From Ulota crispa (lineage: Eukaryota; Streptophyta; Bryopsida; Orthotrichales; Orthotrichaceae), in NCBI GenBank assembly GCA_963920765.1, contig OY987245.1, forward strand, positions 21,406,727-21,470,726: a stretch of 64,000 nucleotides of DNA, written 5' to 3'. A model generated the notes under the pieces. That model saw nothing but the letters and a program-made list of their open reading frames with translations. It was not told the DNA's origin and did not search any database. Of the stretch, positions 21,384-61,949 are shown piece by piece. Each line of letters opens with the position of its first letter. The stretch's first letter is position 1. Both the position numbers and the translations under genes were made by a program.

Positions 21384-22196
21384 TTAACCCCTAAATGACC
21401 AAGCTTTTGTTTGTTTGTAAAAATCACTAAAAATGGCTGTTTTTAGTAGAATGAGTAGAAAGATAGGAAAAATAGGGTTTTTTTTAACCAACCATAAAAT
21501 CTTGCCCTAAACTACTGGAAATTATTTGTGAAAAACAAAAATCCTCACTTTAGATGAGGAGTGAGATATTGACATAAGAAGTAAAAAAACAAAAGTCTTT
21601 GACCACTCTCATAACAAAAAAATTGCTCTACACAATGTTGAAGTTTAATTGCTTTTCATAGATGACCAAGTTAGGTATGTGTGGAAGAATTTTCAAATGA
21701 ATTAGAAGTGTTCAACATATTTCAAAAAATCTTTGAATGCCAAAAAGTCATAAAATTACAAATACATTAGACAAAATTAGAGGATTTATGTAAAAATTGT
21801 AAACTTGAATCATACTACTCGAAAAGGTGAAACCAATGAATCTAAGCATACTGCAATTTGGAAAAACAAAAAAAATAAAATATACAAATTGCACAAAAAA
21901 ACTGTGTACCAAATTTTACAAGGGGCAAAAGAAATGGAAGGTTGGGAGTCTCTCAAGACAGTCCCCTATCATTACACTAGTCTACTCTCCTTTGTCCAAC
22001 TGGTCACACTTTGTACCCGTAAAGGCCAATTTCCATGGAGACTAGTGTCAGGTAGAGAGGAATACGCTTTGGAAATACGCAGGGTATTTGGCTGCAACTT
22101 AGTGTAGTTGGAGTTTTCAATTTTAAGTTCCAATAAGAGTTTTTGAGAACATTTGCTCTCCAGAATAGCTTCCAACTATTGCAGTCTCTCTATAAG

Positions 22197-22385
22197 ATTT
22201 CTAGAGACAATGTTCTCTCTAGAATAAGCACGATTGCCTACTGTAAATTCTAGATGGATATTCTAGAGACAATGTTGTTTCTAGAATAGGCGCGATCTAT
22301 ACTTCAAACTCTAAATGGAAATTTTAGAGATAATGTTGTTTCTAGAATGGACGCGTTTGTCTACTTCAATCAAAACCTCTAAATC
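22197..22385. repeat. three tandem units of about 61 bp
   Basis: Three consecutive units each begin TTYTAGAGAYAATGTT and contain TCTAGAAT, followed by a CGCG/ACGA-like word and an AAAYTCTA tail. The units are diverged by about a fifth. This lies inside the extra DNA within element H1. Confidence 0.65.
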
Positions 22386-22439
22386 TCACTTCAAACTATA
22401 CTATTATCCAAAATTAAAAGAAAATAAAATGAAGTTTCT

Positions 22440-23150
22440 TCTCCCTCTTAGGCAAACCAACCACTGTCTCTTTGAAGCTCTATAACTTTTGTATTATAGC
22501 TTTAAAATACAAGTGTGATAGCAATTTGAAAAGCTGATACTATCAAATACAACACGTAAAAATTTCACCAAAAATTAAGACTTTGTCTAAAAGTTATAGC
22601 AAATCAATGTTTGAATAGAGAAAACTACCTAACCTCTCAACTTCTACAAATTATAATTCTCTTGAAAATCTTTCAAATGATTTGATTGATAATAATTTGA
22701 AATTTTAATTTAATAAGCTAATACTTCTAAATTTTTCAAAAGAAAATTCCAAACAAGCCAAAAGTTATGGCTCATCAAAGTTGCGGCCTTCTTCTTGTAA
22801 AAAGATAAACTACCTCCAAACTTTTACTTAACATAACTTCTTCAATAATCCTTTAAATAACATGTGTAATATCAAATTGAAGAGACAATCTTACAAGCTA
22901 TTATCCCTACAAATTTCAAAAGAAAACATCAATTTCACAAGTAGTTATGACTCTTCAAAGTTACGGCCTCCTTTTCACCAAAGACATGCAACCTCTAAGC
23001 ATTTGCTCCTCCATATCTTCCTCTTCAAAGCTCCACTTTTCAAGTTTGATAGCTTTTTTGAAAGCTTATATAATGATCTTCACTTCCTAAAATTTTTGTA
23101 ATAAACTAACAAGTTGTCTAGTTTCTATGGTTGAACAAAATCTCCACCCT
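22440..23150. repeat. degenerate tandem array with a period near 180 bp
   Basis: Word pairs recur about 180 bp apart. AAAGTTGCGGCCTTC (near 22779) and AAAGTTACGGCCTCC (near 22959) are one pair. AACTACCTAACCTC (near 22624) and AACTACCTCCAAAC (near 22810) are another. Each unit also carries an AACTTYTxCAA...TTTGAAAA..CT region. About four diverged units are visible. There is no coding content. Confidence 0.5.
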
Positions 23151-24466
23151 TTCACATAGGAGGCAGCAAACCTTCCTCCATTCAAACAAGCACAACTTTT
23201 GAATGCTAACTCCAAATTAAGCAAACATACAATTTTTGGAAACCTCACACAAAGATGCACAAGTTCCACAAATCTCACTTCATAGTTCAACATATACAAT
23301 GAGTTATGGCTTCTGCCACATTCGGATCACTTCTCTCCACTCTCTACTACACTTGAAAAGATTTGGATACTTCCTAGGATGCCTTGGGCACATGGGTCAG
23401 CCCATACCCTTCTCACATGGGTGGACATATTCCCATTGGATCCCATAACTTACTCTTATCATTATCTTGAGGTTATTCTACCTCAAATTTTAGATTAAAG
23501 GCAAAATGTCTTAAGATTTCTCTCAAACTACTTCCACCAAAGATATCTACTTCATTTCCTTTTCCATTTCTTAATAAAAAACAAAGATAAAACAAATACC
23601 ACCGCAAAGTGGCTACCTGCCCTCATGGGCATACAAAAGCGCTAAAAGCTTATCTTCAGTCGCCAAGCCGTAGACTTGGTTGGCTGGAGAAGCAATGGTC
23701 TTTTTCCGCCACTTTTACCTCAACTCTTCATTTATTGAAATCAAAATCAAATTAGATATTAAATGTATATTTACATGATAGAAACATCTCTATCAAGACA
23801 TCGGAACTGGAGGGGACCTCTAAGCTAATTTCGAGCAGAGTCAAGGAAAATTTCTGAAATCTTTATTAGACATAGAATTTAGAAAAGAACCTCTAGTCAA
23901 GGATCTATGCTTCCAAGATTGCAAATCAACTTTTGCAGAATCAGAGGCTAGAGGTCTAGTCCAGACCCCTTCAGCCCCCCCATGGAAATTGGCTCTAAAT
24001 ACTAACTCTCTTTGGAGTTAACAGCCACTTACAAAGAAGTGGCCCTACCCAAACTGCCCCTTTTCCCCTAGTTTTGATAAGTTCCTGCTTAACTTTTTCA
24101 CCAAATATCATAATGAAAAAAAAAATTAGATGCCCACACAGGTTTTTTAATGCCACACATTCAATAGAAGTTTCAAAAATCTTACAAACTAGTACAATTG
24201 TAAATACATGCCCAAAATCTCATTTGTCCTCCAAGGGGATAATGTTCCTTTAGAGGTTAAATACTTGCAAGATTGTGTCCTAAAATAGTTGATTTCCCTA
24301 AACCATGCTTTTACAATTTAAAATATTTTTGCTATCTTTCATTTTGTTTAAACAATTGTAAGGAATATCAATTAGCATGTAGCTAAAATCATTGTTTTAT
24401 AGTACAATACCAAGCAAACATGAATTGTCTGATGTTGTTCAAAGAGCTTGGCATAATACATAGTAA

Positions 24467-25192
24467 AATTTGGATTTTGTTGTTTTGAATCATAGAGATT
24501 GATCCTTACGCAATCCCAACCAAGCATACCAAATTTTGATTCTAAAAAATCAAAAATCCTATTTTTGGTGAATTAATTTGAATTGAATCCATGATTTTAC
24601 ATGAAAACTGATTGAAGAAAATTGGTGACGAATTCTTGAGATCTAATTGCTTAGATGTACAGGAAACATCTATATGCACCTTTTTATGTTAAAACAAATA
24701 CCTCTAAGAAACAAAATTATGATTGACAAAAAGTTCATAGGTTGTGGTAGGACCACAATTTTAAAATAGATATTCTTGTTTTTAAACTAGCTTTTGGCTA
24801 AGTAAACACATTGTCATGTTCAAAGGTACAAACTTAGCCATAGTATATGAGCAAAGGAACAAAATTTGATTATCATATATAAACATTTACTTTACAAAAT
24901 TTGAACACATTCATCTGAACATTGAAATCATTATAAAAGGAGTTTAGGAGCATTTTCTGAAAATGCTTGTTAAAAAGACAGATGTGTGTATGAGTACCTA
25001 CACATCCATCCAATCAAATCTCAAAATTTCATCACAAATTTTCTTTAATCACTTTTCATGTAAATCATGAATTTAATACAAAATAATTCATCAAAAATAG
25101 GCTTTTGATTTTTTGGAATCAAAATTTGATATGCTTGATTGGGATTGCATTAGAATCAATTCTAAATAATTCAAAATAACAAAATACCAATT
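24467..25192. mobile_element. element with about 200-bp inverted arms
   Basis: The arms at about 24467-24668 and 24983-25192 are inverted copies of each other at roughly 80% identity. Shared words include GCAATCCCAAYCAAGCATAY and AAATTTTGATTC. A spacer of about 315 bp separates them. Long terminal inverted repeats are typical of Mutator-like non-autonomous elements, but no 9-bp target duplication could be recognised, so the family is open. Confidence 0.5.
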
Positions 25193-25362
25193 ACACTCCG
25201 GATTAACAAAGTTCTTAAAATGACATAACAGAGTGTTCGAGGACTTGTTGGAGGGTATACAGCACATCGATAAAAAAAATTGTAAAGCTATGAGAGCATG
25301 CTACATGGCAGGGGATGAAAGCTATCCCAAGAGCCGGCTCTTGCTTGCTCCCCCATGACCGT

Positions 25363-25394
25363 GGCACTACGGTACAGTACTGTACTGTAGTGCC
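25363..25394. repeat. 32-bp near-perfect palindrome
   Basis: A 16-bp arm reading GGCACTACGGTACAGT is followed directly by its inverted copy with a single mismatch. The surrounding sequence is GC-richer than average. Its role is unknown. Confidence 0.7.
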
Positions 25395-25494
25395 TACAAA
25401 CTTCGGAGCTTGTCACGGTATTTATTCAAAACTGTTGCCACGTGTCATTAGTGTGTATGCAAGAGAGGGGTTTTTTAAGTACATTTAACCCCTA

Positions 25495-26586
25495 AGCGTT
25501 GGGGTCACCATGGATACATATGGTTCAGTGTATCTGCGGGGACAAAAAATGTCTTTCTGGATGTTTAGAGGTTAATTCTTACAGGGTCAAATGTTCCCTC
25601 GACGGACAAATGGATTTTGGGCATGTACCTATAGCTAAACTAGTTTGTGTGATTTTTTAAAACTTTTATTGAAGGTGGAAGTTCCAAGACCTACGCGAGC
25701 ATCTAATTTTTTCTTCATTCTAACATTTCATGAAGAAGTTATGCAAGAATTTATGCTACTCGGGGGAGGGAGGGCAATCCACTTAGCCCAAAAACTTCTT
25801 TAAAATTTATGTTTTTTAAAATAAAAATCTGAAATTGGTTCTTTTGATTTTTTTTATATGTGGGAAGTTTTGAATCATTCATTTTCAATTAGTGAGATGA
25901 AAGTCATGAGATGTTTTAGTTTGTGGACAGTTACGGATCCTCTACTCTAAAATAAACTTTGAAGTCCTTTATTTCCACAATTATCAATATTTTGGAAAAA
26001 TAACTAAACCCAAGGAAGTAGATTGTATTAAAACATTATAAGTGTTGGGATTTGCATTTTTCATTTCAATCATTAAATTCTTAACAATTTAGTGTTTTGA
26101 CTCATTCTCTACTTCTTTTTACATACTATTTTTTCCCATGTGTTGTATAGTTCCAATTAATTTGAAAGTTCTCCCACACATACCTAACTTGGTCTTCTAC
26201 AAGGAAAAAATAAACCTCAACTTTGTGTGGAGCATTTTTTTTCATGTAAGAGTGGTCACAAGCTTTTGAATTTTTTGGACAACACGGAAAAAAACCTTTT
26301 TTTTCACTTCATATGTAAATATCTCCCTCCTCTCCATGTAGAATGACTTGATTTTTTTCCCACAAGTACCTCTTCTAGTCTAAGGTAAGATTTTACGATT
26401 GGATTTGCAAAACAAACTTTATTTCCTACTTTTCTACTTATTCCCCCCAAAGTGGCACTTTTCTATGACTTTCACAAAAAAAAGACTTGAACCTTTAGGA
26501 GTTAACCCTTAAGCACCAAAGGGGATAATTTTTGTCCCTGAGAATAAATGGGGCCCCCACCGTGACCCCCGGCGCTTGGGGATTAA
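25495..26586. mobile_element. TTAA-flanked palindromic MITE (G) split by element H3
   Basis: The outer ends are TTAA-CCCCTAAGCGTTGGGG and the complement of TTAA-TCCCCAAGCGCCGGGG. Without the nested element (25572-26505), what remains is two inverted arms of about 80 bp meeting at a central TTAA. The arms share GGGACAAAAA and GTCACC words. TTAA lies at both outer edges and at the inner joint, consistent with two successive TTAA-specific insertions. Confidence 0.65.
25572..26505 (-). mobile_element. TTAA-flanked element H3 (reverse copy of the H family)
   Basis: TTAA at 25572-25575 and 26502-26505 bound about 930 bp. Its reverse complement aligns along its length with 37838-38770 and with the outer parts of 21384-24260. 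Shared features include a CTCCTAAAGG-type left end, AAAGTCAY..AAA, ACCAAGTTAGGTATGTGTGG and GGGCATGTAC near the right end. It is inserted at the centre of the palindromic element G. No coding content. Confidence 0.7.
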
Positions 26587-27166: not shown

Positions 27167-28061
27167 CTGGTAGAATGGCTTATCAACCCCTTTATTAAGG
27201 CTGGGCACCCATGTAAGAATTTAACATGTCTAGTTCACTTTGTGGTCACTTGTTCTTCTAAATTTCTCTTTTCGAGTGATGTTTTATAAAAATATATAGT
27301 TTTACACACAAATTGTTGAAATTTGAAATGACGCTCCAAAAGTCATCACAAAGTGATAACGTGAAAAAATTGCATTTATTCTTTAAAAATGCAATTTTCT
27401 ATCTCAAAGTGGCAATCTTTTACTTTTTTTTTTGCTATGCCAAAATTCAAAGTCACAATGCAAATTCATGTTTCCAATACTAGTCTTGCACAAATGTACT
27501 TGCATAAGTGCATCGAAGATCTCTAAATAAAGTTTGAAGTGGAGTTGATTTATATGAGATTTTGCTTCAAAAGAAATCTTTCACAAATGGCAAGATCTAC
27601 CAAAATCATCTTTTAAATTTTTATCAACATGGGTCAATCTTCATATAACACAATAATAGTCCCACCAATTTGCCATGCTTTTGACATATTCTTCTTCTCA
27701 TGCTCAAAGCATATTGTCTCAATATACTCTGGTGCTTGGGCCTTGCACATATTTTTTGTTTTTCTTTTCTCACGTGACTTATTCACATAAACTATTTGTG
27801 TTTCACATGACATGCCTTCCTTAAAATTGCTAGGCGAATATGCTTTGAAATCTAAATTAACAAAATAGATTCACCAACAATATTTAGTACATTGCATGTA
27901 CGTGTTGTAGAGCTGTGATAAAAAAAGGCTTAGCTTTTCATCTACTTACAGCCCTCTACATGTGTTACTCCTTGGGAGTAACTTCTTTAGTAACACTTGT
28001 AGGATGTTGACACCTTTATTGATGTCAAGTTTATAAAAATTAATATAAACATTCTCAAACT
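27167..28061. other. AT-rich stretch without a recognisable gene
   Basis: No protein-like frame and no closed repeat. A small TTACTCC/GGAGTAA inverted word lies near 27965. Confidence 0.4.
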
Positions 28062-28706
28062 TTAACCCCCAAATGCCCAAGGCACCCAGGTGCTTGCAAA
28101 ACTTTGAAGACGGATGAAATCTTATCAAATCACTATTTTTGGTATTTTCTTTTGAACACAAGTTTGTTTTGAAATCTACTTTCAGTATCAAAAATCTGAT
28201 TTTAAAAATGAATGTTCTTGATTTTTCTATTCAAGATTTTGTACAAGGGTGTCCACTGCAATCTTGAGTTTTCTAGTGTTGGAAGATCTTGAAAATGAGC
28301 CTCAAATACACTAGAGCTTGGAGAAAAATCTGCATTAGAAATTCATTTAGAGAAAATACATGAATAGATTTTGAAAGCCGTTAATTGGTTGAGGTTAAAC
28401 ATGTAATGACCTTAAACCTCATATTTTTTTGATGACCAACTTTTCAGATTTGACATGCAAAATGAGGATTAGAAGACTTTAAGTCACTTTTGCAGTTTTA
28501 ACACCCTCGTTCAGACATTATAATCTTTCAAACTATAAGTGATATTGTTGTGTTTCTTTTTCCATGTAATCTCTAACATGTCAAGTTTAAATTTGTACAG
28601 TTACAGTTAAAAAAAACTTGATGAGATTTATGAAAAGATTGGTTGATTGTTCACTTTCCTGAAAATGCCAAGAAGTTCAAAAAGGCCTTGGACATTTAGG
28701 GGTTAA
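28062..28706 (-). mobile_element. TTAA-flanked MITE, family F (copy 1)
   Basis: TTAA-CCCCCAAATGCCCAAGGC at the left and the complement of TTAA-CCCCTAAATGTCCAAGGC at the right enclose 637 bp without coding sequence. The interior, in reverse orientation, matches the copies at 39357-40017, 48328-48982 and the left part of 49040-49689. A shared word is CACAACAATATCACTTAT. TTAA duplication and CC-starting short inverted ends fit piggyBac-type non-autonomous elements. Confidence 0.75.
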
Positions 28707-30365
28707 CTTTTGGATATACACGTCATAATGAAAAATAGCACATATCAATAAATATCCACCTCTTTACTCAAAAAATCAAACCTTTATAACATGAAATGCA
28801 TTGACTATATTGTCAATCATGTAAAATATATAGAAAGAAAAAATATCTAAAAAGAATTGTCAAGATAAAGCTAAGCCCCAAGATCTCATTTCAATATTTA
28901 GTGTTTGGAGGCTTTTGATGAAAAGCATGATGTTTTTGAAATTTTGTTCAAGAAATTGGTTCAAAGAATCAATTGTAAAAATAGACTCAACAAATTCTTT
29001 CATTGGTGTTAGCTCAACTATATTCACATTACCTTTGTTTTCAATAGCGTCACTTTCATTAGGATTAAATATTGCTCATATATTGTCATTTCATTAGAAG
29101 AACTTGTGTTTTTTTTAAGGATTTATTTGGATGTTCACTAGTTTTTATGTTAACAATGACATTAAACATACCATTAAGATGTTAATTTTAACATCAATGA
29201 TAACCTAAAAAACAAGTAGACGTCCAAAAAAATCTGTCAAAAAAAACAGTGGTTTTAGCTACGAAGTTTCTTAGCTCATATGAAGTATTGAGATTGAATC
29301 CAAAATTATAATTGACAAATTCATGAGCATTTATGGTAGGCAATGTGTTTGAATTCTTCTCGAGGAATTCTTACATGATAGGAATAGAAGCTCTTTTAGC
29401 AACAATATATGTAATATATCTCATTTTTGCTTGATGCTTCGGATCTTGTGATTTACTTTGAATTAGCTCAAATAAAATTCTTGTATGCTTCCGACAATTT
29501 GCAATTGTCCAAAGGTTAACTCCTACTCTAAAGACCAAACCCATTTTTTCTCTAAAAATACTCAAGATTGTCATTTCTAGTTATGTGATCTTAGAAACAA
29601 GTTTTTTGTATTTTGCACAAATTTAATGGTATAATCTTGCATGAGATTTATGCAAGAAGATATGGTGAAAGTTTTGCAAAGTTTTACGTAATGGATTGAA
29701 AGATAGGATCATATGGAGTTAGTAAAGGAGTTTTATTGACCGCTTACCAAAACAATTAGGTTGCTTTGACAACATATTGTGGAATTTTTTTTGTGGTATG
29801 GGTGCTAAAGAGATTTGTCTAACGTGCTCCAAATCATATGAGGCATATCTCTACAAGTTTTCATGGCCAACAAAGACATGAAACACACCCTACATGGTCT
29901 TGCATTGCAAACATGTGCTTGAAGTTCACATTGCGTTGAGGTTTTTTTTGCAAACCAAATTTTTGAAGGGTATTTTTGGAAAAAAAAATCCAAGCCTTGG
30001 ATTGAGTTTTTTTAGTTTTTTCAACAGTTACCAAAAAAAACTTGGGGAAAAAATCATAGTTTTAGTAATTATTGTAACTTAAAAGTTAATGTATTTATCT
30101 AGTACACTATTTGTTTTGGATATACTCCAATGAAGGGTCATGCCTTCATTGGTTGCACTTTGGAAAAGTTAATGAAAAATGGTATGTCCAATTTGCCCCT
30201 TCAACTAAAATTCCTCTAAAATCTCCCATTAGTTTTTAACTTTAGTTTTGGTTTCAATGAAAATAATATTCCATTGCCACCCTTACAAACCTATCTCTAT
30301 TCTATAAAATAACTTTGGGTCCAACTTGTTTGTTAAGTTAATACTACCGGACTTACCGATGCTCG
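28707..30365. other. AT-rich stretch; possible decayed minus-strand frames
   Basis: Two short minus-strand frames (29371-29574 and 29805-29993) are somewhat rich in Cys, His, Trp and Met and could be scraps of one old transposon gene. I recognise no motif, so no family is named. Nothing else can be supported here. Confidence 0.3.
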
Positions 30366-30370
30366 TGGGA

Positions 30371-31357: not shown

Positions 31358-32897
31358 TAAGGCAGGAGGCTTGCAAATGGAGCAGGTAAGGGTTTGTGTG
31401 CTTTTGTGAAAAATCAAGGAAACTTTGTAAAATGGAAACATTTTTGGTAAAAAGCCAAAGAAGAGACAGTTTTGTAGCCTTTTAATTTGAATTTTTTTGA
31501 GTTAGTATGAATTAACTACAATTTATCAAAGCAAAAGGTGCATAGGTAGCTATTCTTGATCATAAGTGGTAGCATTCATGATGCAAAGGCGGTTTGTAAA
31601 TGGAGCATATGAGTCTTAAAGGCAACTACTGCAAAGCCAAGAATGCTCCAATAAGGCTCTTAGAGCGTGCAAGCACCCATTCCACATTCTAATTTTCAAA
31701 TCATGATTGAGAAAGCGTTTTCATTTATTTTGGTATGACATGTATCTATGTTTTATTGAAAAACAAACCTGAACACAATTATGACCACTAAACACACTCA
31801 ACATTTGCTCATGTCACTCTCTTAAGTTCCTAAAACAATGCATATACAAGTACAATTTTTGAACATAGAAAATGTGACCCATTTAACCCTTTAGTGATTG
31901 TCAACCATTTGGGGGGCACCTCAAATTTTCACTATACGGTTTGCAAAACACATTCAAGGACAAAATTTGTGGTTCTAAAATCAAATCGGACCAGATATAT
32001 TGAACCTATCAACTTTGGCAATATGAATATATAAAAGAAGTTTGATCTATCAGAATAATTCCACGTGAGGACTGTGAGAAGCTTCATGATCCAAAAAAAC
32101 TTGTTGAGCAAAAACGTGAGACACTCTAACTAATTAGTATCATTTGTGCAATTGAAACTTTTGATGGTGGTGGGAATTGTAGAGGCTATTGCCTTGTTTT
32201 AGGTTACTGCATTTTTAAAAAAAACTACAAAATTTGAGTCAATCTGTGCATTTCACGGCATGATTTGTGAAATTGAGCATTGGAAGAATACAAACTTGGC
32301 CACACATATACGGTTGAATATAACATGCATGGAACACGTTTTCACAAAATCCAATTGGTCAATATTATCTACATTGGGTGTCAGTTGAGGTACAAGGTCC
32401 CACATTTAGCATTGCAAACCTTTGGAGCCTAAAAAATCATAGAATACACAGTGTTGTAGCTGAAATACGGCCACAGGTAGAACCTCTAAACAAACCATGC
32501 ATCTTTTGCACAATTGCTAGAGAGCTAGCATTGAATACTTTGGGTGGAATGTGTGGGCTTTGGGGCCACGTCACGGTTGCACTGAATTAGTATTTCATTT
32601 TTTATACCCATATGAGAGTCCTAGCTTCATATGTAAAACACGCATAGCTACGGCGTGTTTCTTGATGCCTTGCTTTGAAATTTGTTCTAGTAAAAGCACA
32701 AGTTGATGCTTCAACTCTGTTACGTTTTGTGTTTTTGCAAATTAAATGGAACAAAGACAACAAGAACCATGAAGTACCAAAATCAACCCAAAAGTGGTCA
32801 ACCGGTCACTAAAGGGTTAAGAACCTTTATGCATTGTTTTTGTGACCCCTATATGGTCCATTCAAAGTGCATGTTCAAATTAGAGCCTCCTACCTTA
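31358..32897. mobile_element. TA-type MITE with AGGCAGGAGGCTT ends (copy B), split by a TTAA element
   Basis: TA-AGGCAGGAGGCTTGCAAA at the left and the complement of TA-AGGTAGGAGGCTC at the right are the same ends as copy A. The interior matches copy D at 34913-35883 (shared words AGTATGAATTAACT and GGTTTGTAAATGGAGCA) but not copy A, so this is a second subfamily using the same ends. A 938-bp TTAA-flanked element sits inside. Without it this copy is about 600 bp. Confidence 0.7.
31883..32820. mobile_element. TTAA-flanked element I nested in copy B
   Basis: TTAA-CCCTTTAGTGATTGTCAACC at the left and the complement of TTAA-CCCTTTAGTGACCGGTTGAC at the right enclose about 930 bp without a protein-like frame. 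These ends match for 12 bp and then partly for about 8 more. They follow the common pattern of the other TTAA elements. Confidence 0.7.
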
Positions 32898-33258: not shown

Positions 33259-34038
33259 TTAACCCCTAAGTGTCCAAGCCGTTTTCACCAAAATCAGGGT
33301 TTTTGGAGACCCGCAACTTTGATGCATTGTATCTTGGTCAATCAAATGATTCACAAAAAGTGACCATTGAAATTAGTGGAACACCTACTTGGAAAATGGC
33401 TTGCAAATTTTGAGAACAATCCACTTCAAGAGATGGGAGATTATGACATTTGATCAAACATGTGATGAGAAAATCTCATGTTTTGATAGGTAGGTGCTAT
33501 TTGATGATTTTTACAAAATTCTATAAGCCCCGGATTCATCTCAAATTTTGTGAGCAACAAGATGATATGTGAATGCACACACTTGTAAATTATTGAAGAT
33601 TACAGTTCTTTTTATGTCAAGTTTTAGGGCTTCAAATGGCTATTGCACGAAAAACAATGACCAGTACAGCTAGTGACAATTGCCATAACAAGGGTCTAGA
33701 ACATGCTTGAACCTTGCCAGTAACTTTCCTGCTACCACAAAGCTTACACAAGGAAGCTTGCAAGGGATATTGACCGGTTGCAGCATGTAAAACACTACTT
33801 GCCACCATGCCTCGTACGGTGCCACCATGCTCCATATGGTGTTTTCACCTAATCAAATCTCTTGTAGCACTTGTACAACATTTGGCTTTCCCTCCCATTA
33901 CTCCATTGGCATGGACAACTGGAATGCCTTCAAAATTGTAGTTTATAGCAGGATCAAAAAGTTAGATCTCGTCCTTCAAAATAGGGTTTGAAAATATTAG
34001 GAGGCGATATATGGGGCGCTGGGGCACTCAAGGGTTAA
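33259..34038. mobile_element. TTAA-flanked element J
   Basis: TTAA-CCCCTAAGTGTCCAAGCC at the left and the complement of TTAA-CCCTTGAGTGCCCCAGCG at the right enclose about 770 bp. No coding content. The interior is unlike the F and H families, so only the ends and the TTAA duplication place it in the group. Confidence 0.6.
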
Positions 34039-35350: not shown

Positions 35351-35584
35351 TTAACCTTTAAACGTCCATAGGGCATAGTATATACGCTGATGTATAATTG
35401 TCATTTGCTACCAATAAGAAACTTCAATTTGGGATCTCAAGTAGCTCACTAGAACTGCATTGATCTATTCTCCAACATCTTTGTAGGTCTCAAATGTAGC
35501 AGAGGTGTCAATCCATTCCAAATACAAGAAAAATACCACATATTGTACTGGTCGGAGCAGCATGCTCAGACGTTTAGGGGTTAA
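35351..35584. mobile_element. TTAA-flanked MITE K nested in copy D
   Basis: TTAA-CCTTTAAACGTCC at the left and the complement of TTAA-CCCCTAAACGTCTGAGC at the right enclose 226 bp. It is the smallest complete TTAA element in the window. No coding content. Confidence 0.65.
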
Positions 35585-41385: not shown

Positions 41386-41491
41386 ATTATATATTGATTT
41401 GTTGAAACTTCTGTGATCCTGTTTGAAAATTCCAGCTTTGTTTTCTGGAGATTTTGATGTACTGTTGTTCTCTGTCGGCAATCTGAATGTA

Positions 41492-43115: not shown

Positions 43116-43220
43116 TGGCCTTCCTAGTTCCTCCAACTCGGAACCCAGTTTGAAAGTCTTTCGCATACATTACTACATTATTGGTTGGGAGCCTGTTTCT
43201 GAGAGAATTGTTCTGCAGCC

Positions 43221-46726: not shown

Positions 46727-47838
46727 CTAGCTCCCGGGGGTGAAGTTGGTGGCGTACGCCCACGCGTTGTTCGCCACGGGGTCTGCCAAGTGGTCGCTCA
46801 GATTCTCCAGGGGTCCCTTGCCGGTCACGATGGCCTGCACGAAGAACCCGAACATCGAGAACATCGCCAGTCGCCCGTTCTTGATCTCCTTCACCTTCAA
46901 CTCAGCGAACGTGTCGGGGTCGTCAGCCAACCCCAAAGGGTCGAATGATCCTCCCGGGTAGATGGGATCCGTCACCTCGCCCAACGGCCCTCCCGCCACT
47001 CTGTACCCCTCAATGGCTCCCATCAAGATCACCTGGGTTGCCCAGATGGCCAGGATGCTCTGGGCATGGATGAGGCTCGAGTTACCCAAGTAGTCCAATC
47101 CTCCCGACGCGAAGATCTGCGATCCGGCCTTGAACCAGACGGCTTCACCGAACTTGGTGCCACTCTTGGCGAGCAGCTCCGGGGTCAGACACCCGAGGGC
47201 TCCGAGCATGGCCCAGCGGGCATGGATGACCTCCAGCTCGCGGTTGCGGGCGAACGTCTCGGGGTCGGACGAGAGTCCGGCGGTGTCCCAGCCGTAGTCA
47301 CCGGCGAACTCGCCGTTGAGGTACGAGGGGGTGTTCTCGGAGAAGGGGCCCAAGAACTTGGGTCGGTCGGCGCCATACCTGATGCAATTCAGAGCCATCA
47401 ATACTCACAGCAGGCTGTGCTATCACTTGCACAGTCCTAAGAGACGCACATTGCAATGCAGACAAAGATACTCCACGCCTTATCTCTCCTAGTTCGGCCT
47501 CCATCCTTCCGAGAAAGGATGCAACGACATGCCAATAGTACACATTTATACCAAGCGACTACATCCGGCAGGACGTCAACGGCTACGCAATGCATTTCTA
47601 GAACGGACGCCAAGCAGGACAATGGTTCGAACCAGAAAGCTCGCAAAACACACAGAGACTAGAAAACAGCAACATTGCACAATGCTCACCAGATGCTGCC
47701 GCTGGCTCCCTTGGCAGCCGCCTTGCGCATGGTGATGCGAGCGTCATTGGTGCCCACCTGGCGGGCGAGCTCATTGACGGGCCTGAGCAGGCTCTGCCCA
47801 GCCAAAGCCGTCGAGTGCATGGCGGTCGCGGCGGCCAT
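46727..47838 (-). CDS. LHCB: chlorophyll a/b-binding protein of LHCII, Lhcb1/2 type (gene 3)
   Basis: On the minus strand, exon 1 is 47838-47690 and exon 2 is 47378-46727, with a 311-bp GT-AG intron at the same Trp codon. It encodes 266 residues. The N-terminal half of the transit peptide ([10 protein letters not shown], then [16 protein letters not shown]) is like gene 2. The rest ([20 protein letters not shown]) is like gene 1, a mosaic. The mature N terminus again lacks a Thr at the phosphosite. The trimer motif is WYGADR, and [10 protein letters not shown] has Ala where genes 1 and 2 have Pro. The remainder is identical in protein to genes 1 and 2 despite many silent changes, a sign of strong purifying selection. 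It lies in the opposite orientation to genes 1 and 2 and has the clearest light-type promoter. Role: LHCII antenna subunit in the thylakoid. Confidence 0.97.
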
Positions 47839-48327: not shown

Positions 48328-48982
48328 TTAACCACTCAAGGACCATGCACTTTCCCGAGTATCTAAAGATCTATTCTTGGTTGAAAAAAATGTTAACATT
48401 TTGATAAGTTGCATTAATTTAAAAAAAATTGTAGTCATACAAATTCAAACAAGATATGTTAGAGAACACATAGGAAAAGAAAAAACAACAATATCACTTA
48501 TGGATTGAAAGATTATAACATTTGATCAAGAGAGTATTAAAACTATGAAAGTGATTTGAAGTTATCAATCCTCTTTTCACATCTCAAATTTAAAAATTGA
48601 GGATACCAAAAAAATATGAGTATGTAAAGTACAACATGTGTAACCCTAATCAATTTATGGCTTCTTAAAACCTACTCTACAACTTTTTAAATTAAGTTTC
48701 TAATGTGATTTTTTCTCCAAGTTCTAGTGTACTTGAGGCTAATTTCCAAGAGCTCTCAACACTAGAAAGTGAAGATTTGCAATGGACACCCTTGCACAAA
48801 ATCTTAAATAGAAAAATCATAATTAGTCATTTTCAAAATCAAACTTTTGATACTAAAACAAGACTTCAACAAGAATTTTAAAATAATAATAATCATTGTA
48901 ATTAATCATGAAGAAAATTTAGGCATCCCAAATTACAAATAAGGAAGGACGGTTTTGGTACCCTTGGGCCTTGAGGGATTAA
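48328..48982 (+). mobile_element. TTAA-flanked MITE, family F (copy 3), upstream of LHCII gene 3
   Basis: TTAA-CCACTCAAGGACC at the left and the complement of TTAA-TCCCTCAAGGCCCAAGGG at the right enclose about 647 bp. The interior matches copy 2 in the same orientation (words TTAACATTTTGATAAGTTGC and CACAACAATATCACTTA-like). It lies about 300 bp beyond the gene 3 promoter motifs. Confidence 0.7.
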
Positions 48983-49039: not shown

Positions 49040-49689
49040 TTAACTCCTAAATATCTAAGGCCTTTTTTGAGCTTCTAGGAATTTTCTTGAAATTGAACAA
49101 AAGTTAACATTTTGATAAGTTGTATCATTTTAAAAAAAATCGTAACCATTCAAATTCAAATTAGATATATCAAAAATCACATTAGATAAGAAAACACAAC
49201 AATATCACCCATGGATTGAAAGATCATAATGTTTGATCATGAGGGTGTTAAAATTGTGAAAATGACTTGAAGTCTTTAAATCCTCTTTTCACATGTCAAA
49301 TCTTAAAAATTGGTCACTAAAAAAACTTGAGGTCAAAGGACATAAGGGTTATCAAAAAAACACTTTGTAGGATGGAAAAAAACCAATTTTAATTTGATTT
49401 TTTTTAGAAGTGACCATGAAAACATAGTTTATTGTGGAAGGCAAAAAAAATATTCCAATTGAATGTACAAATGTTTTTTGGTAGCCCAAATTGTGAGAAG
49501 ATTTAGAGACACGGTGTTGGGTGCCATGCTGCATGTCTTGTAATTTTCATGAAGATAGCATTCATTGTTGATTTTTCAACTTTTGGAAATAGTCGTATAA
49601 AAGGTGGGCCCTTGCTACACCACTATAGGGCACTGTAGAGCAATTGTAGAGGGGCAACTATGATGACAAGCCTAAAATTTAGGGGTTAA
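49040..49689 (+). mobile_element. TTAA-flanked MITE, family F (copy 4), right half diverged
   Basis: TTAA-CTCCTAAATATCTAAGGCC begins the element and its left 300 bp match the other F copies. The right end is the complement of TTAA-CCCCTAAATTTTAGGC at 49686-49689. The total length, 650 bp, is typical of family F, but the right half is unlike the other copies, so either it was replaced or the right end belongs to another element. Confidence 0.5.
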
Positions 49690-49898: not shown

Positions 49899-50663
49899 TT
49901 AACCCCTAAAGGACCAAAGAGTCCAATATGGCCAAATAGGGTTATTGGAGGTGTAAAGGTAGATAGAAAAGGCATTGCATGCTCAAGTTTTGGTTTGCCA
50001 CTCAAGTCTAAATGGAGCTAAAAGTCCAACAAAACTTTTGGATCGGCTTGTTGTTCCTTTAAGCTTCTAGATTTTTCACCCAAACATTTGAATTTACTAT
50101 TTTTAATATTAAAACTATTAGTGGGAGTGTATATAGGCAGTGTACATTGCATTGTGGATGGAGGAATCTTGGATGGGATGGATTGGAAGTCCACACTTCC
50201 ATGTATAGGGGAGAAGGTTGGTGATGTGTCACTTTTTTTCTCTCAATTGGGCAAGGTTTTTGTAGCTCTAAAGTAGTGAGCCAGTTAGATCCACTTTCTT
50301 TGAATGACCATAAGTTTTGGAGTTATTTCCCATTTGGGGAGTTTTTTTCCATCAAGTATAGCTAGACATGGAATCAACCATTAGGTGAATTTTTTTTTGG
50401 GAAAAAATCAAATCAAAGTCCAAAATCCATATTGTGAACTGCTACCAAATTAATAAATATGAGATTCTCAACGGTGGGGATTTTGCAGATTTACTTGGAT
50501 TTGAAATCAGACTAGCCTTACACTTATGATTTATAGTTGGGTATAGAATGACTAGTTTGGATTGTGTGAATACTTGTTCAACTTTTTAAAAATTGAGGAA
50601 ATGTGCTGAAGGTTCCATATTGGAAGTATACTAGATTTTCTTAGCAAGACGCTTAGAGGTTAA
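49899..50663. mobile_element. TTAA-flanked element M
   Basis: TTAA-CCCCTAAAGGACC at the left and the complement of TTAA-CCTCTAAGCGTCTTGC at the right enclose about 757 bp of AT-rich non-coding DNA. The ends match each other only for about 7-8 bases, so this is one of the weaker members. Confidence 0.4.
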
Positions 50664-51500: not shown

Positions 51501-52613
51501 TCACATGCACTTGCAAGCTTGATGAATGCACCTGGACAATTCAATGAAATAAATTCCCAATTTTTTGCAGACGACGTCTCTTTTGCCAAGCCTTCCCTTC
51601 ATTTTCAAGAACTCTGACTCAATTTATAATCATTTTACAGCTTTGTGCTTATGCTACAAACTTAACAATTATTAATCCAAGAACTTACACTAATTGCACC
51701 TTTATGTGCGACAAATTACTCCAACTAGAGTATCAAACTTGAAATGCTTCTGATTTGCTTTGAAATTTGGAGCATTGTTGATGGTTCAGAGGTTTCTCTT
51801 GCCACGACTAATGTCACTGCCATGGCAGCTTGGAAATTAAAATATTCCAAGGCACGATCTGAAATTCTTCTCCATTGCGGAGAAAAGCAGCTACTTTTGC
51901 TGAAACCTCTCTCTACTTCCAAAGTTGTATGGGACAAGCTAAAACAGCTTTATGAACGCTCAAACAAAGCGTCTCAAGTCAATTTGCATAAACAGCTATG
52001 TCATTTATCCATGACTAATAATGACAATGTTGTCAACTTTTTTGAAAACTGGCAATAAATTTTACAGGAAGCCGCCATTGCAGGTTGCAAATTTGACGAC
52101 GCACAATAAGTTATGCTGCTTCTTGCAGCATTACCAGATTCCTAGAGCGCTTTTGTTACAACACAAGGCAAAATTTCCACTCTTACCTTTACTGAGCTCG
52201 TCTCCAATATTTTACAACAAAGTGCTATTAATAGTTCCAAAATTGAATCTTCCAAAATCTCAGCCTTCTATGTTAAAGGTAAATTTCTTAAACCCCAAAA
52301 CAAGTCAAACCACTTTCAGAAGGCAAGTTCCTTGCTAGGCAAACCTGTTAACCAGCTCAGATGGCCAACTTCATTCCCGACCAACATCATCTCTTGCCAT
52401 TACTGTGGCAAGCCAAGCCATAAGTCGCTTGAATGCAGAAAGAAGAAACAAGACTTGGGTACCTCAACATCCCATCTTAACTCTGCTTCATCTGATGATC
52501 CTTTGTACATGTTTTGTGCCATAATTTTGGAGTCTTTATCCTCGATTTCCACATGTTGGTATTTGGACTCTGGTGCGAGTCAACACATGTCACCAATTCA
52601 ACTCTTATTTTGA
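51501..52613 (+). pseudogene. Copia fossil: Gag and protease remnant
   Basis: A helical Gag region (for example WDKLKQLYERSNKASQVNL) is followed by the CCHC zinc knuckle and then the aspartic protease word YLDSGASQHM. The region is broken. Confidence 0.75.
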
Positions 52614-53161
52614 GATTATCAAGAGCTTTCCAATTCCAAAACAATATTGCTAAGTGATAATAGCACCTACCATGCTCTTGATTTTGGTTCAATTCTCCTC
52701 AAACTCACCACATGTCAAAGTTTACTTATTAGAAATATACTTTATGTGCCTGGATTGGCCAAAAACTTACTCTTTGTGGCCCAAATTACAAGTACTAGAA
52801 ACACTATTGTCACCTTTACTCGTGATGAATGTGTTATTAAAACTACTTCTCCAACATCTCGTCAAACTATGCTCTTCATAGTTCCTAAAGATGGAAATCT
52901 ATTCTCTATGGGCATTGGAATTGATCTTTCTGGTCAAAGCTATTCAACAACCTCCAAAAGTGACCTTGATACACTTAAATGGCATTATTGCCAGGGGCAT
53001 CTTAATTTATGCTACTTGGAAACCATGCAGACTCATGACCTTGTCATTGGCCTACCTTCACTTCAATCACTCAATCATTGTGTATTGCTTGCACCTTTGG
53101 GAAGCAACACTGAAAACCGTTCCCCCCTGATAAGGTCACTCAAGCAACAAAACCACTAGCA

Positions 53162-54355
53162 TTGGTTCATACAAACTTGTGTGGTCCCATGAAGACTCTG
53201 TCCATTGGAGGTGCCTTATATTTTCTAATATTTATTGATGATTTCTCACAATATACTCATATATATTTCTTGCAAAAGAAATCAGCAATACTTTCTTACT
53301 TTACTCAATATAAGAGTTTAGTCAAGAATCATACTAGCAAAAAGATTCTAATTCTTCATTCTGACAACAAAGGAGAGTTTACCTCTAAATTTTTTAACAA
53401 AATCTATACAGATAGTGGCATTCAACACCACTTCACAAATCCGTATAATCCCTCCCAAACTAGTGTTTTTGAAAGCAAAAACAAAACACTTGTTGAATCT
53501 GCAAGAAATATGCTACATATAGCTCAATTACCTAATATGTATTGGGCTGAAGTAGTTTTCACTACTTGTTATTTACAAAACTGCTCCTATACTTCATCTT
53601 TGGACAATACTACTCCATTTACCAGCATAAAGCCTAATATAAGTTATTTAAGAATTTTTGGTTGCAAAAGATTTTCTCATATACCTGATGAGAAATGCAC
53701 AAAGCTTGAAATCATATCAACCCCCTATATATTTGTGGGCTATGGCGATCCTTACAACCCTGAAACTCAACAAATTTTCTCCAGCAGAGATGTGATATTC
53801 AAAGAAGACTCTTTACTTGCAAAGCAAACTTCCTCAACTCAAGACTCAAGCTCCTCAACCTTTACACTAGATACTTATTACTTGGTTTTTGAACCAGTTA
53901 ATCATCATCAGCCTCAGGCTCTAGCTCCTCAACACCAGCCAAACTTTCAACCACCTGTGCAACTCCCTGACTCTCCACTTGCAACCCCAATGACTCCTAG
54001 AGCTTCACCATCGCAGCCCTCGGCTTCAATGCCACCCACTCCAGCTTTGACTCAATTGACTCAGGGCCCACTTTTATCATCTCATATGATCTTTCACCTC
54101 AAGCAAAATTCACCATTGCACCTCTCTTCGTGTCAAAATTCTACCAGATCAACTAAAGGTCAACGGACAACCACAAAGTTCCATGATGAAAGTGCATATG
54201 TGAGTGTTTTTCTAACCCAATTATCAGAATCTCTTTCTATTGATGAAGCTCTTTCCAAGCCAAATTTTGCTCATTGGTGTACTACTATGGAAAACGAATG
54301 TGATTCTTTCATCAAGAATAATACCTCGACTTTAGTTGATTGTCCACCCAATTGA
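53162..54355 (+). pseudogene. Copia fossil: integrase remnant
   Basis: Integrase core words FLIFIDDFSQYTHIYFL, LHSDNKGEF and HHFTNPYNPSQTSVFE are visible in order. A Pro/Ser/Gln-rich linker to the reverse transcriptase follows. It is preceded by a GAG-pre-integrase segment (about 52700-53100). It is part of a broken element. Confidence 0.85.
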
Positions 54356-54359
54356 TCCA

Positions 54360-55341
54360 TAGTCAGTTCCAAATGGCTATTTTGCAAAAAATACAAATTT
54401 GATGGAAGTATTGATTGCTACAAAGCTCGCTTTGTGGCTTGTGAATTTTCACAATCAAAAGGTATGATTATTATGAAACCTTTTCTCTAGTTATCAAAAT
54501 GACTTCCCTTTGTGTCTTGTTGGCTCTTGCCACAATCCACAACTATTATGTGCACCAAATGGACGTTACGACAGCCTTCTTTAATGGTGTTCTTAATAAA
54601 GAGATTTATATTTCTCTGCCTCTTGGCTTTATAAATCTCGGCACAGCTTCAAAAGTTTGCCGTTTGCACAAGTCCCTTTATGGACTTAAACAAGCATCTC
54701 GTGTTTGGTATGAATTAATTGACACCTATCTATTAAGTCATGGTTTTTCCAAATGTGTTTCTAACACAAATGTTTACATCAAATCTTCTGACACCAATTT
54801 TATTTTATTGGGTTTCTACATTGATGACATAATACTTATCTCTAGGGATCTTACTTATTTAATTTCCCACAAAACTTTAATTTCTTAGCTTTTCTCAATG
54901 ATTGACAACAATGATATTGAATATATCTTTGGCATTCAAATTCAAAGATATCCTTCTAGTAAAACTCTTATCTTATCACAAGCTAAATATATTGAAACCA
55001 TCCTTACAAAATTTAATAAGGCCTCATGCAAACATGTTGCTACTCCTTTAGAAGCACGTATTTGCTACTCCAAAATTCAAGCAAATGATCTTTCTCCAGA
55101 TGACATACAATATATGACTACAGTTCTATATTCACAAATACTAGGCTGTCTTCAATATTTGGTAACCTGTACTAGATTCGACCTTGCTTATTTGGTCAAT
55201 CATCTTGCACAGTTCATGTCAACACCAACACTTGTGCACTGGATTGCTCTTAAACGACTCCTGCGATATCTTCAAAAGACCTCCCATTCTAGCCTCCTTT
55301 ACAGTGGCTCTTCTTCAAGTTCTTCTCTTACCTATGGGTAG
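54360..55341 (+). pseudogene. Copia fossil: reverse transcriptase remnant
   Basis: The words QMDVTTAFFNGVLNKEIY, LYGLKQASRVWYE and FYIDDIILIS (the catalytic YxDD-type motif reads YIDD) identify Ty1/Copia RT. The sequence continues to the start of RNase H, where the 735-bp element interrupts it. It is broken. Confidence 0.85.
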
Positions 55342-56071
55342 TTGCAAGAATGACCTGCCAGTTTTGTCTCAAACACCCATAAGATTGGTAGTACTATGTA
55401 GTACTATGAGCTCTTGAAATAAATTTTTTAAAATAAAATAAAACATGTACAATTTGTAAAGCACTTAAAATAGCATACTTGTGAAAATTCAGATCTAGCA
55501 AAATTTCATTCTAAAAGTTATGCACAAAAATAGAGGGACAAAAATTACCAATAAAAAGCCAATTTCTTTCTTCCTTTTTAGTAAATATTAAAATAATTCA
55601 ATAAAATAAAATAAAAATAAGCCATTTGAGAACCCATTAAATACATTCACATGGTACAATTGCTTTGCTGAGGAATTTTTTTGTATTTTGTCAATGAAGG
55701 ATAGGATGCCCACTTTGAGACAATGTAGATGCCATGGAATTTATAATTTTGCAAAACCCTTCTACAAATGCATGTAAGCATGCTTCATAAACAACATCCC
55801 TGATTTATAGCCCTAGAAAAGCTTTTTTGGACCCAAAATAGTACTAAAACCTCCAAAATGGCCAAGGTAGACACCTATTTTGGGGTTGCTTAAAAATAGC
55901 AAAATAATTTCAAAAAATACCAAAAAATCATCAAACATCAATAACTTGCATGTTCATGTTACCCTAAAAGGAAAAGTCAATATGACTTCTTTTGCAAAAG
56001 TTACAAGCAAAAAATAAGCCGCAACAGGTGAGGGGGACACAATGTAGTACAGGTCATTCTTGCAATCACCC
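55337..56071. mobile_element. non-autonomous TIR element inserted in the Copia fossil
   Basis: GGGTAGTTGCAAGAATGACC at the left is matched by an inverted GGGTGATTGCAAGAATGACC at the right (22 bp, two mismatches). CTAT flanks both sides (55333-55336 and 56072-56075), a 4-bp (possibly 5-bp, CCTAT) duplication. The 735 bp between are AT-rich and non-coding. The superfamily is uncertain. Confidence 0.75.
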
Positions 56072-56564
56072 CTATAAGCTTGAAGGATGGTGCAATGCAG
56101 ATTGGGTAGGGGATATCAACGCCTGACAATTTGCGTCTAGATATTTATTTAAACTAAATGGCAATCTGCTATCTTGGCATAGTAAGAAGCAACAGGTTGT
56201 GGCCCTTTCCTCAACTGAGGCAAAATATGTTGCTGCAACTACAGCTACCAAAGAATTGGTGTGGCTACAAGCTTTGCTATCAAAGATTGGATATTCCATT
56301 CAAATGCCTTCCACAATTTTCAGTGATAATCAATCTTCTATTGCGCTTTCCAAGAATCCTCGATTTCATGAAAGATCCAAGCACATTGAAATTAAGTATC
56401 ATTTTCTGCGAGAGAAAGTCAAGACCAATGTCTTACAATTGGAATACATCCCAATTGGTGTTTTGTGGGCGGACATCCTAACCAAGAGCCTGCCCAAACC
56501 AAAACATGACGCATGTGCTGCTGCTAATGGTCTAACTGGATTCTCAACTAAATTTGACACTTGA
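56072..56564 (+). pseudogene. Copia fossil: RNase H remnant
   Basis: The words VALSSTEAKYVAATTATKEL, FSDNQSSIALSKNP and HIEIKYHFLREKV are the standard end of Copia polyproteins. The tail ADILTKSLPKPKHDAC is also typical. It belongs to the same element as the upstream parts. Confidence 0.85.
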
Positions 56565-58560: not shown

Positions 58561-58769
58561 TTAAAGAAGTTTTCTCAGCTGCCCAAGTTACCTGTTGAGC
58601 AAAAAAACTACATATCATGCAACAACTTTTGAACCATGAAGTTAAAAGTTATGAAAATTGTTGGGCCTCAAAACTAATCCTTGGACACATCATGTGTGAA
58701 ATTGATTATAAAAACTCCTTGTTTGTAGGATTGTTATTTTACACAACAATAGCAAATGCGTTTGTCTTG

Positions 58770-59720
58770 GATTTTGTCTTTTTACAATTCTAAACTAGTA
58801 AATCTTTACAAATCCAAATGTACTTCAAAGTCCTTAGTTTTGTTAAAAACTTGCTCTCAATAGCTCAAATTTTGAGCACTAGAAGCACAATTATTACCAT
58901 TGCTTTTAATCAATCTATAATTAAGTCTAGTTCACTAACCAATCATCAACATATGACTTTTTGGAATTAAAAAGATGGTAGCTTTTCTTTTTGTTGGTAA
59001 TGATCCTTCTATTCATAACTATGTTGCCATTATAAAATCAAACATTTCTACATTAAAATGACACTATTACTTAGATCATCTTTGTTTTTATCATTAAATA
59101 CCGTGCAATCTCATGACTTGGTTATTAACTCACCACCACTCAAATCTTCCATGCCATTATGTACCAATTACATTTGCAACAAGTATCATCAAACAACTTA
59201 TTCATATGATTCAACCACTAGAGCCTTGGTACCTCTTACACTTATTCATATAAACTTGTGAGGTCCAATGAAGACTCCTTCACATTATGGCATTTTATAC
59301 TTTCTTATACGAGTGGGTGACTATACACAATACACGCATATTAATTTTCTGAAAAAATATTTTACAATTTTTTTCTTTTATTCAACACAAAAACTTAATA
59401 GAGAACTAAATGCCTTAAAATAATTTGATTCTTTATTTTGATAACAAGGGTAAAATTACGTTTTACAAATTTTACAAAGTTCATATTGATTTTGGCATTC
59501 AATGTCAATTTACAAACACATATAATCCAACACAGAATAGTGTTGCTAAATAAATGAATAGTGTATGCATTAGATTATGTAAAATCAAACTTTCTAACAC
59601 TTGCTGTCAAGTTGAAGCTTAACACATTGCTTGTTATTTGCAAATCTATTTTTACACCTTTGTATTGACAAATTCCACATCATTTACAATATGGACTTTA
59701 TTGTTTTCAATGTTGTTAGA
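58770..59720 (+). mobile_element. second Ty1/Copia fossil, internal fragment
   Basis: Scraps of the GAG-pre-integrase region (about 58850-59000) and integrase (about 59230-59700) appear in the same order as in the element at 50966-56770 and resemble it word for word in places (for example a Tyr-Asn-Pro-Thr-Gln region near 59525). It is heavily broken, with no LTRs seen, so it is older than the first or was truncated early. Confidence 0.6.
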
Positions 59721-61149
59721 ATTTGCCATAAAATTTAATTCTAAGCAAAGTAGCGATTAGAAAAACAAATTTAAGCTCAACTTTGCTCTAGATAATCTAC
59801 ACCCTCAAGGATTTTACACACAATAACTAAGCAATTCATTGGAAGACTTAAGATTATTTGGGAGCAAGGAATTTCTCTATATCTTTGTTGCATTTACTTG
59901 GGATCATTTTAAAAAAATGTGATTTTGTTGTTCATTGAGTTTGAAACATACTCATCTAAACACATATGCAGTTGGCACGCAATCAAAATACAATTGATAT
60001 AACGTAAAGAAAATTTTAATTTTGCAAATCTTTTTATGTATGTACATATATTAATATTTATTTATTTATTGATTGTGCCAAAGGTCCTCCATCAAGTCAT
60101 TTCATAGAGCAAGATATGTTTGATCAGTTTTGATTTTTCTAATGCCTTGGCCTAGCTCCCAAAATGTAAGCTCTCTTTATATGCTTCTTCCAACTATTGG
60201 CTTAATTGAAAAAAGGCTCCAACTCTTTCTTTTGTTTCACTATCAATGGTCATGTTGTATCAAATGATAAAGCACATTATTGTGTTGTTTATAAAGTTTG
60301 AATCCCACTATCTTATCAAAAAATTCAAGAAAGTTTTTTTTGCTTTCACCATATAAAGTAATAACTAGTTGCACAAACCAACTCCACTGCAACTGTATGG
60401 TGTCAGTGAATAAGTCATAATGAGTGTAAAGGTGGACATTAACTCTAAAAGTCATGTCATTCCTTTCACCTTGAAAAAGATTACAGCAAATTGCAATCAA
60501 TTTAACATTTTAATGTTGATGTTGCCTTTGGACAAACCAAAGAATGCTTACCTAATTTAAAAGGATTGGTCTCTAGTAGCTTCCAAGATCATACTACAAA
60601 AATTGTCTTTTATTTGGAACTAATCTTACCATGCCACTAAGCAATTTTCCACATCTAGTGTATGCAATCCAAGTTTACAAACATGCTAAGAAAACCTTTA
60701 GTAGTGTTTATTTGGATTTATTTTAGCTCATCCTCTCTAGTAGATTGATGCAAAAATATATTTCTAAAAAAAATCCAAATTGCAATAGTGCAATGTTTCA
60801 TTTACTCTTTAATAATAGTGTCTTTGATCCTATAATATTTGTCTATTGTGTTTACATGTATTTTTGTACAATACTATGCATATGGTAGCAATGCAGTTGC
60901 AACAACAACAATCCAGGTCTCTCCAACCTATTGCGTTTTGAATGAACTAATCGGGTCAAAATTAGAAATTTTTCATCCTAAACCATCAAATTTTGCATCC
61001 TCTGCAAAATAATCCTTATTTAATCATCAATTGCAATTTTACTTTACTTTAAAGGTGTACCTTCTTTGATGCAAGCTTCCACCAAGCTTGGACCTTATAT
61101 GTAGTTATTTACAAGTGCAATTTGGTGCAAAATCCAACCAAACACCTTG
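59721..61149. other. AT-rich stretch without a recognisable gene
   Basis: No supported feature. The minus frame 60243-60500 has no familiar motif. Confidence 0.4.
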
Positions 61150-61949
61150 TTAACCCTTGAGCACCCCACTAGCCAAAATATGGCCTCCCAAAATCAAACT
61201 TTCTACAATACTAGGTCCAAATTTAAAGGTGTACTACCTAGAAAACTGTGCTTGGTTTAGGATATGGTACTACTCTCATGTCACATAGTGGGCGATGAGG
61301 GTTTTACCACTTGTGCAAACACAGATTGTGCAAGTCAAGTATGACAATAGTAAGTTAGAACTTCATTTCATGTGGTTTAGGGTTTAGGTGCAAGGATAGA
61401 GACCACCTGCTATGGCCAATTCCATACCATTAGGGGTATTTTGGCACGCACGTCTCAGGCTAGAAAAGGATTTTGCAATTGTACCACAGGGAGCCCTGCC
61501 CTTGTGGAGGTCAAAGTTGTACATATACCCTGTCTATTGCCCACCATGCCGTCTAGGCCTTGCACTTTGGGCCTCTAAAAAAGCACCTTGCAGATGTTAG
61601 AACATCACCAAATTTGGAAGCAAGGAAGATACTTGTAAATTGCACCCCTTGTCTAAATTTCATCAAAAGGAGTCTCCTCTAAGGCATGAATTTTCGCATC
61701 CATAGCCATGGACCCCCCCTAAAATTGGCCGGTTGCCACATAGTTAACTGTACTTTGACTATTTTAATCTCCAAAATGGTGCGGTCAAAAGTTTTGCAAA
61801 TGTCTGATCGGGTGCATTAAGCACCTTTTTTGTTATTTTAGCAGTGAATCCTCCCCAATCTAATTTCCTAGCTTGGGGCGTAGAATGTTTTTGAGCATGG
61901 TCCCCCTGGCCTCATTTTCTGGATTTCACTGTAGGCGCTCAAGGGTTAA
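61150..61949. mobile_element. TTAA-flanked element L
   Basis: TTAA-CCCTTGAGCACCCC at the left and the complement of TTAA-CCCTTGAGCGCCTACAG at the right enclose about 792 bp. The interior is unlike the other TTAA elements and somewhat GC-richer, with a telomere-like TTTAGGG pair near 61380. No credible coding frame. Confidence 0.65.

Follow-up and report, generated by a model that had tools for sequence, protein, structure and literature searches.

TTAA-flanked piggyBac-like elements and their transposase genes in a moss-like plant genome

The piggyBac superfamily is well known, above all from animals, and reports from land plants are scarce; the known systems nearest to the present elements are piggyBac from Trichoplusia ni (PDB 6x67) and piggyBat (PDB 9c0f). 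The elements described here were found in a stretch of 64,000 nucleotides, hereafter the window (positions 21406727-21470726 of contig C4 in a plant genome of 275 Mb and 157 contigs), and elsewhere in the same genome. Like the two reference elements, they have a DDD transposase core in which four aspartates align, a TTAA target, ends starting with CCC and, in 10 of the 20 transposase loci, a C-terminal Cys/His region. Unlike them, they reside in a plant, carry a domain of about 100 amino acids upstream of the core and have coding regions that are interrupted by introns or decayed. Their transposase elements are also larger (5.0-6.8 kb) than T. ni piggyBac (2,472 bp; PMC10140906).

Literature statements here refer to excerpts of the cited papers. 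PiggyBac is listed among the superfamilies of angiosperm miniature inverted-repeat transposable elements (MITEs) in a review (PMC10004981), and a table of the Ceratopteris genome gives 1,230 repeats labelled PiggyBac (PMC6890710). These MITEs and fern repeats are non-autonomous and plant-borne, like the window elements, but the excerpts class them by their ends and duplication or list them in a table of repeats, and give no evidence of a transposase, whereas many transposase lineages occur here between the same ends. In its excerpted part, a review from 2022 on the transposable elements of land plants names six plant superfamilies with terminal inverted repeats, piggyBac not among them (PMC9033089); five superfamilies are given for plants in a grapevine study of 2008 (PMC2528002). 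Animal papers speak of 'plants' in general (PMC8086355, PMC10140906, PMC10813416). T. ni piggyBac itself works in rice and, as of 2017, was untried in Physcomitrella (PMC5505980). Domesticated proteins such as PGBD and PiggyMac share with the present ones a piggyBac core, a cysteine-rich domain and an N-terminal extension (the extensions were not directly compared), but they are host genes (PMC8086355), whereas the genes described here occur in repeated, decayed copies between transposon ends. The open-licence PMC literature, whose match lists were seen in part, yielded no description of native bryophyte piggyBac elements, which does not prove absence; the sole moss paper among the fuller matches (PMC10619864) merely contains the word 'piggybacking'.

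The blocks of the window almost certainly belong to a large and diverse piggyBac population in a moss-like genome, of which they are non-autonomous members, either MITEs or larger deletion forms. A preliminary description had proposed piggyBac-like transposition in a plant genome from TTAA-flanked blocks, and this proposal is borne out by transposase genes lying between such ends, by TTAA boundaries, by empty sites and by the chlorophyll-binding and PsaD genes of the host. At least 120 matches to DDE_Tnp_1_7 (piggyBac) are present in the genome, a lower bound as 116 of 528 candidates were scored, and none was found in 14 named control genomes. Twenty of these loci were examined with flanks of about 4 kb. 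In eight, the gene lies between TTAA-CCC ends of the same kind as in the window, which agree at 10-16 of 18 positions and delimit elements of the size given above. The end pairs of loci L031 and L043 were too weak for use, and that of L045 (541-6830) was dropped because its left end is an end of the repeated family H that recurs in many loci.

A core profile built from seven translated stretches of six loci was compared with 177,635 distinct PDB sequences and matched only piggyBat (E 2.9e-49) and piggyBac (E 1.2e-41). In the alignment to 6x67, aspartate is found at the positions of D268, D346, D447 and D450 in 19, 15, 17 and 16 of the 20 loci respectively, gaps included; at the first three positions the remaining loci have asparagine (as L043 at D447) or a gap. 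The 20 cores fall into about 11 groups, with 28-55% identity between groups and 57-81% within them. Stops are present in 110 of the 120 genome stretches, and the core of L038, as read from its open reading frames (ORFs), is split by a frameshift. Among the genome matches, equal-scoring pairs on opposite strands lie about 15-110 kb apart (C7:18203169/18223004, C10:676128/785346, C2:36765124/36779670, C3:158669/186754), which could reflect large inverted duplications, in the genome itself or in the assembly.

The common end pattern reported for the window is real. Written as CCCYTNARNGNCC, with 10 informative positions, it has nine perfect matches in the window, all immediately inside TTAA; at 9 or more of the 10 positions there are 20 matches, 16 of them inside TTAA. 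In 20 Markov-1 shuffles, perfect matches averaged 0.1 in total and 0 with TTAA, and matches at 9 or more positions with TTAA averaged 0.05. As the motif was derived from the window itself, the genome count provides an independent test: TTAACCCYTNARNGNCC occurs 29,788 times (14,936 + 14,852), versus 3 for a control pattern read backwards. At two ends per element, the genome would hold no fewer than about 14,900 elements. It has 1,964 places with the exact 18-bp end CCCCTAAATGYCCAAGGC, and at 1,660 of these TTAA immediately precedes the end. Counting free 16-bp inverted-end pairs inside TTAA was too weak as a test, because the other 4-mers AATT, AAAT and TTTT yield as many pairs or more (13-22) as the 10 found with up to 4 mismatches (shuffle mean 2.7, maximum 10); with up to 3 mismatches there were 2 pairs against a shuffle mean of 0.23.

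Twelve block starts had been listed in the preliminary description. TTAA is at the given base in 11 and TTAACC in 8, and two starts did not stand: the one placed at 25495 is off by 10 bases, a TTAACCCCTAAGCG end sitting at 25485, and 25572 has a TTAA without the motif, with a weak right end finishing at 25575. Seven elements have two supported ends (28062, 31883, 33259, 35351, 39357, 48328 and 61150). In all but 35351-35584, the inverted ends agree at 11-14 of 16 positions, and they open with CC or CCC, as is characteristic of the superfamily. The elements of the window, none with an assigned strand, are listed below; 'ends' gives the positions at which the inverted ends agree.

28062-28706: family F non-autonomous element, 645 bp from TTAA to TTAA; 17 aligned copies all bounded by TTAA, an empty relative with one TTAA, and 34 of 37 end bases in common with the transposase element of L032 (through the family majority sequence).
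31883-32820: non-autonomous element with CCCTTTAGTGACC-type ends, 938 bp; ends 12/16; its empty relatives lie in L037 and in the window at 35.7-35.9 kb; last 49 bp 78% identical to an end of the L033 transposase element.
33259-34038: non-autonomous element, 780 bp; perfect motif at both ends; ends 12/16; last 47 bp 79% identical to an end of the L030 transposase element.
35351-35584: small non-autonomous element, 234 bp; taking it out leaves an intact repeat, found without interruption also in L037 and in the window at 31.5-31.9 kb; motif 9/10 at both ends, the inverted ends matching less well.
39357-40017: family F element, 661 bp, inverted relative to 28062; 75% identity to 28050-28710 across its length; ends 13/16.
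48328-48982: 655-bp element with CCCTCAAGG-type ends and an interior like that of family F, resembling 28169-28597 and 39410-39931; ends 12/16.
49040-49689: probable family F element with a weak right end; 49040-49345 is 83% identical to 39357-39669 from the TTAA on; motif 7/10 at both ends.
61150-61949: 800-bp relative, of deletion type, of the transposase element in L044; its bases 1-152 align to the beginning of the L044 element (66%, E 2e-4) and, in the same order, its bases 409-650 to the interior (64%, E 8e-4); empty relative on contig C7, with AAAA at the site.
21384-26505: probable large composite family H element, 5122 bp, with further ends inside; ends 12/16; alignments with other copies begin exactly at TTAA at both termini.
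37838-38763: left part of a family H copy; alignments with 21384, L030, L042, L044 and L045 begin at its TTAA; perfect motif; right end not found.
49899-50663: element with a perfect left end (10/10) and a weak right end (8/10).

Several transposon ends are crowded at 25485-26586, where the TTAA at 26502-26505 terminates one element on the right and begins a second one, a pattern of adjacent or nested insertions at a shared TTAA.

A search for family F with 28062-28706 started from 4,722 first-look candidates and listed 40 scored matches, one of them the query; 16 other copies with 150-bp flanks were aligned with the window copy. Copies running on beyond the TTAA had been named as a result that would contradict piggyBac-like transposition; TTAA was found at both ends of all 17 copies, with unrelated flanks, and column conservation drops there from about 0.97 to about 0.45. 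The 16 copies have a mean pairwise identity of 93.4% (91.6-95.4) and are 95-97% identical to their own majority sequence; as they are the best-scoring matches, an age estimate drawn from them is biased towards close copies.

Empty sites were sought with 67 joined flanks, from 68 candidate end pairs, against the retrieved DNA, and genome-wide for two window elements (28062-28706 and 61150-61949). Uninterrupted relatives were found for nine insertions (31883, 35351, L053, L023, L014, L027, L061, 28062 and 61150). Compared with these paralogous sites of the same genome, the nine show no extra copy of flanking sequence and no duplication besides the 4 bp, contrary to what the preliminary description had considered a possible refutation. 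Within the window, a repeat is split by 31883-32820 at 31.5-31.9 kb and by 35351-35584 at 35.2-35.9 kb and is unbroken in L037; excising either element together with one TTAA brings the repeat back in register. The repeat targeted in L053 is unbroken in six relatives, all with TCAA at the site. L023 has an empty relative with TTAA at window position 62074, and those of L014 and L027, also with TTAA, lie within the locus itself, as the opposite arm of an inverted repeat. The relative of L061 reads CTAG. The joined flanks of 28062-28706 match an uninterrupted genome relative with TTAA and those of 61150-61949 one with AAAA. A junction match of L017 was absent on a second comparison, those of L042 and one match in the window overlap the query itself, and the relatives of L040 align ambiguously; none was counted.

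In 16 of the 20 transposase loci, a coding domain of about 90-100 amino acids lies upstream of the core on the same strand. A profile seeded with eight loci recovered eight more, and against the window and the other loci it gave nothing better than E 0.67. The domain is protein-coding: in two pairs of families, the proportion of synonymous differences (pS) is 0.70-0.77 and that of non-synonymous differences (pN) 0.22-0.25 in frame, a contrast that is gone in the other frames, and the core is under the same purifying selection. The closer pair L029-L037 shows little constraint on this domain, as expected of decaying copies. It has no credible sequence match in Pfam, NCBIfam or the PDB, and a predicted helical model (predicted local distance difference test, pLDDT, 68) found nothing better than E 1.2 in a Foldseek comparison with the PDB. 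The position of the domain suggests that it may be spliced to the core as a single transposase. It is less likely, though a serious alternative, that it belongs to a second, independent protein of the element or to a host-derived gene, outside the transposase. The two parts do lie in different ORFs, 1.5-4.5 kb apart, and 64 of the 102 genome matches to one N-terminal domain have no listed core downstream, although the core list is itself a lower bound. However, 38 of the 102 lie within 6 kb upstream of a listed core on the same strand, versus 0.15 expected from random placement (the length of contig C11 being assumed), and only one match shows another arrangement; with the shared selection, this speaks against a separate protein or host gene. 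Weak matches to the domain at C5:24268285, C1:34626427, C10:10241386 and others lie in open frames of 247-316 amino acids with no listed core nearby, and may represent a less decayed subfamily or host genes.

It had also been suggested that one transposase could be mobilizing many unrelated cargoes. Applied to all the elements, through the outer end pattern alone, this is improbable: all end subtypes do fit a single loose motif, and several window elements have only their ends in common, but the cores form about 11 lineages and end similarity tracks core similarity (Mantel r 0.48, p 0.007, n=8; r 0.52, p 0.001, n=9 with the rejected L045 pair). In addition, window elements match the ends of different transposase elements (L030, L032, L033 and L044), so that the window elements divide among several transposase lineages. 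Together with the correlation, this division weighs against one transposase for all, small as the numbers are. Such sharing of a transposase within a single lineage is likely. In family F, 34 of the first 37 bases of the majority sequence are those of one end of the L032 element, and the common subterminal stretch is CACCCAATTTGGGTG-like and found at one end only; as T. ni piggyBac also has asymmetric ends, this stretch is, by analogy, a candidate transposase-binding site.

PIF/Harbinger or Tc1/mariner elements that happen to prefer TTAA can hardly be entertained: their MITEs are common in plants and their duplications (3-bp TTA/TAA and 2-bp TA; PMC10004981) are included in TTAA, but the four outside bases are TTAA at both ends of all 17 family F copies, contrary to a duplication of 3 bp or of 2 bp only, the inverted ends begin symmetrically at CCC on either side, the empty sites fit a 4-bp target, and the transposase between these ends is DDE_Tnp_1_7, no search for Harbinger or mariner transposases having been made.

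Several points weigh against the piggyBac reading. The empty sites are diverged paralogues rather than alleles: some read TTAA, others TCAA, TTAG, CTAG or AAAA. No end pair was accepted in 12 of the 20 transposase loci, and the cysteine-rich Cys/His pattern follows the core in only half of them, many copies being frameshifted or shortened there. No demonstrably intact transposase copy was found, though copies were not judged one by one. The correlation of ends with lineages relies on eight loci, and p rises to 0.054 (n=7) and 0.10 (n=6) when one and two are dropped. A structure prediction of the core from seven sequences reached a pLDDT of 39 and was not used. Finally, movement of the elements is itself deduced, none having been observed.

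With piggyBac-like transposition retained as the explanation, the cycle of these elements would run as follows. The transposase would bind CCCYTNARNGNCC-type ends, excise the element and reinsert it at a TTAA, which would then flank both sides. Elements without a gene that kept their ends would move in trans, and the end subtypes would largely follow the transposase lineage. Trans-mobilization and seamless excision in this scheme, like the single spliced transposase and any role of its N-terminal domain, are proposed by analogy with the superfamily or from position.

Chlorophyll-binding and PsaD genes identify the host as a plant, and it is likely a moss. The match lists include eleven large contigs, a number that would suit a moss. 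The best PDB matches of the chlorophyll a/b-binding gene are 8htu and 7xqp, and those of a PsaD exon of the genome are 7ksq, 8htu and 6l35/7xqp, in both cases after 9vfj (a long chain for the former). We take these matches to be Physcomitrium patens structures, although the species name is absent from the search outputs. Three chlorophyll a/b-binding protein ORFs (two on the forward strand, one on the reverse) lie at 40663-47404 of the window. They are 94.5-98% identical over about 660-676 bp and occupy a GC-rich island (0.48-0.50 vs about 0.34), as if recently duplicated or homogenized. The window also contains pieces of a Copia-like retrotransposon in several frames at 52146-56564, of which the single ORF scanned has an integrase core domain and an SH3-like domain, an Integrase_H2C2 ORF of a retroelement at 14431-15072, and a DUF4218 ORF at 6924-7688, DUF4218 being a domain found in CACTA transposons.

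A broader proposal, to which we give even weight for and against, is that these elements form an old, long-resident moss branch of piggyBac, with about 11 lineages and synonymous sites near saturation between related families. Its transposase would have acquired a helical N-terminal domain with no known counterpart, which might serve to recognize ends or to target chromatin. The branch would have seeded at least about 15,000 elements, and piggyBac would then count as a major superfamily of DNA transposons in a land plant. Such abundance, number of lineages, element size and upstream domain in a land plant are without a description found in the open-licence PMC literature, as far as it was searched. 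Several transposase lineages between matching ends, together with tens of thousands of ends, change the transposon repertoire expected in land plants. They may also offer plant-native starting material for seamless-excision tools. The conserved upstream domain presents a concrete puzzle to solve, and vertical descent versus horizontal transfer of piggyBac in this lineage becomes testable.

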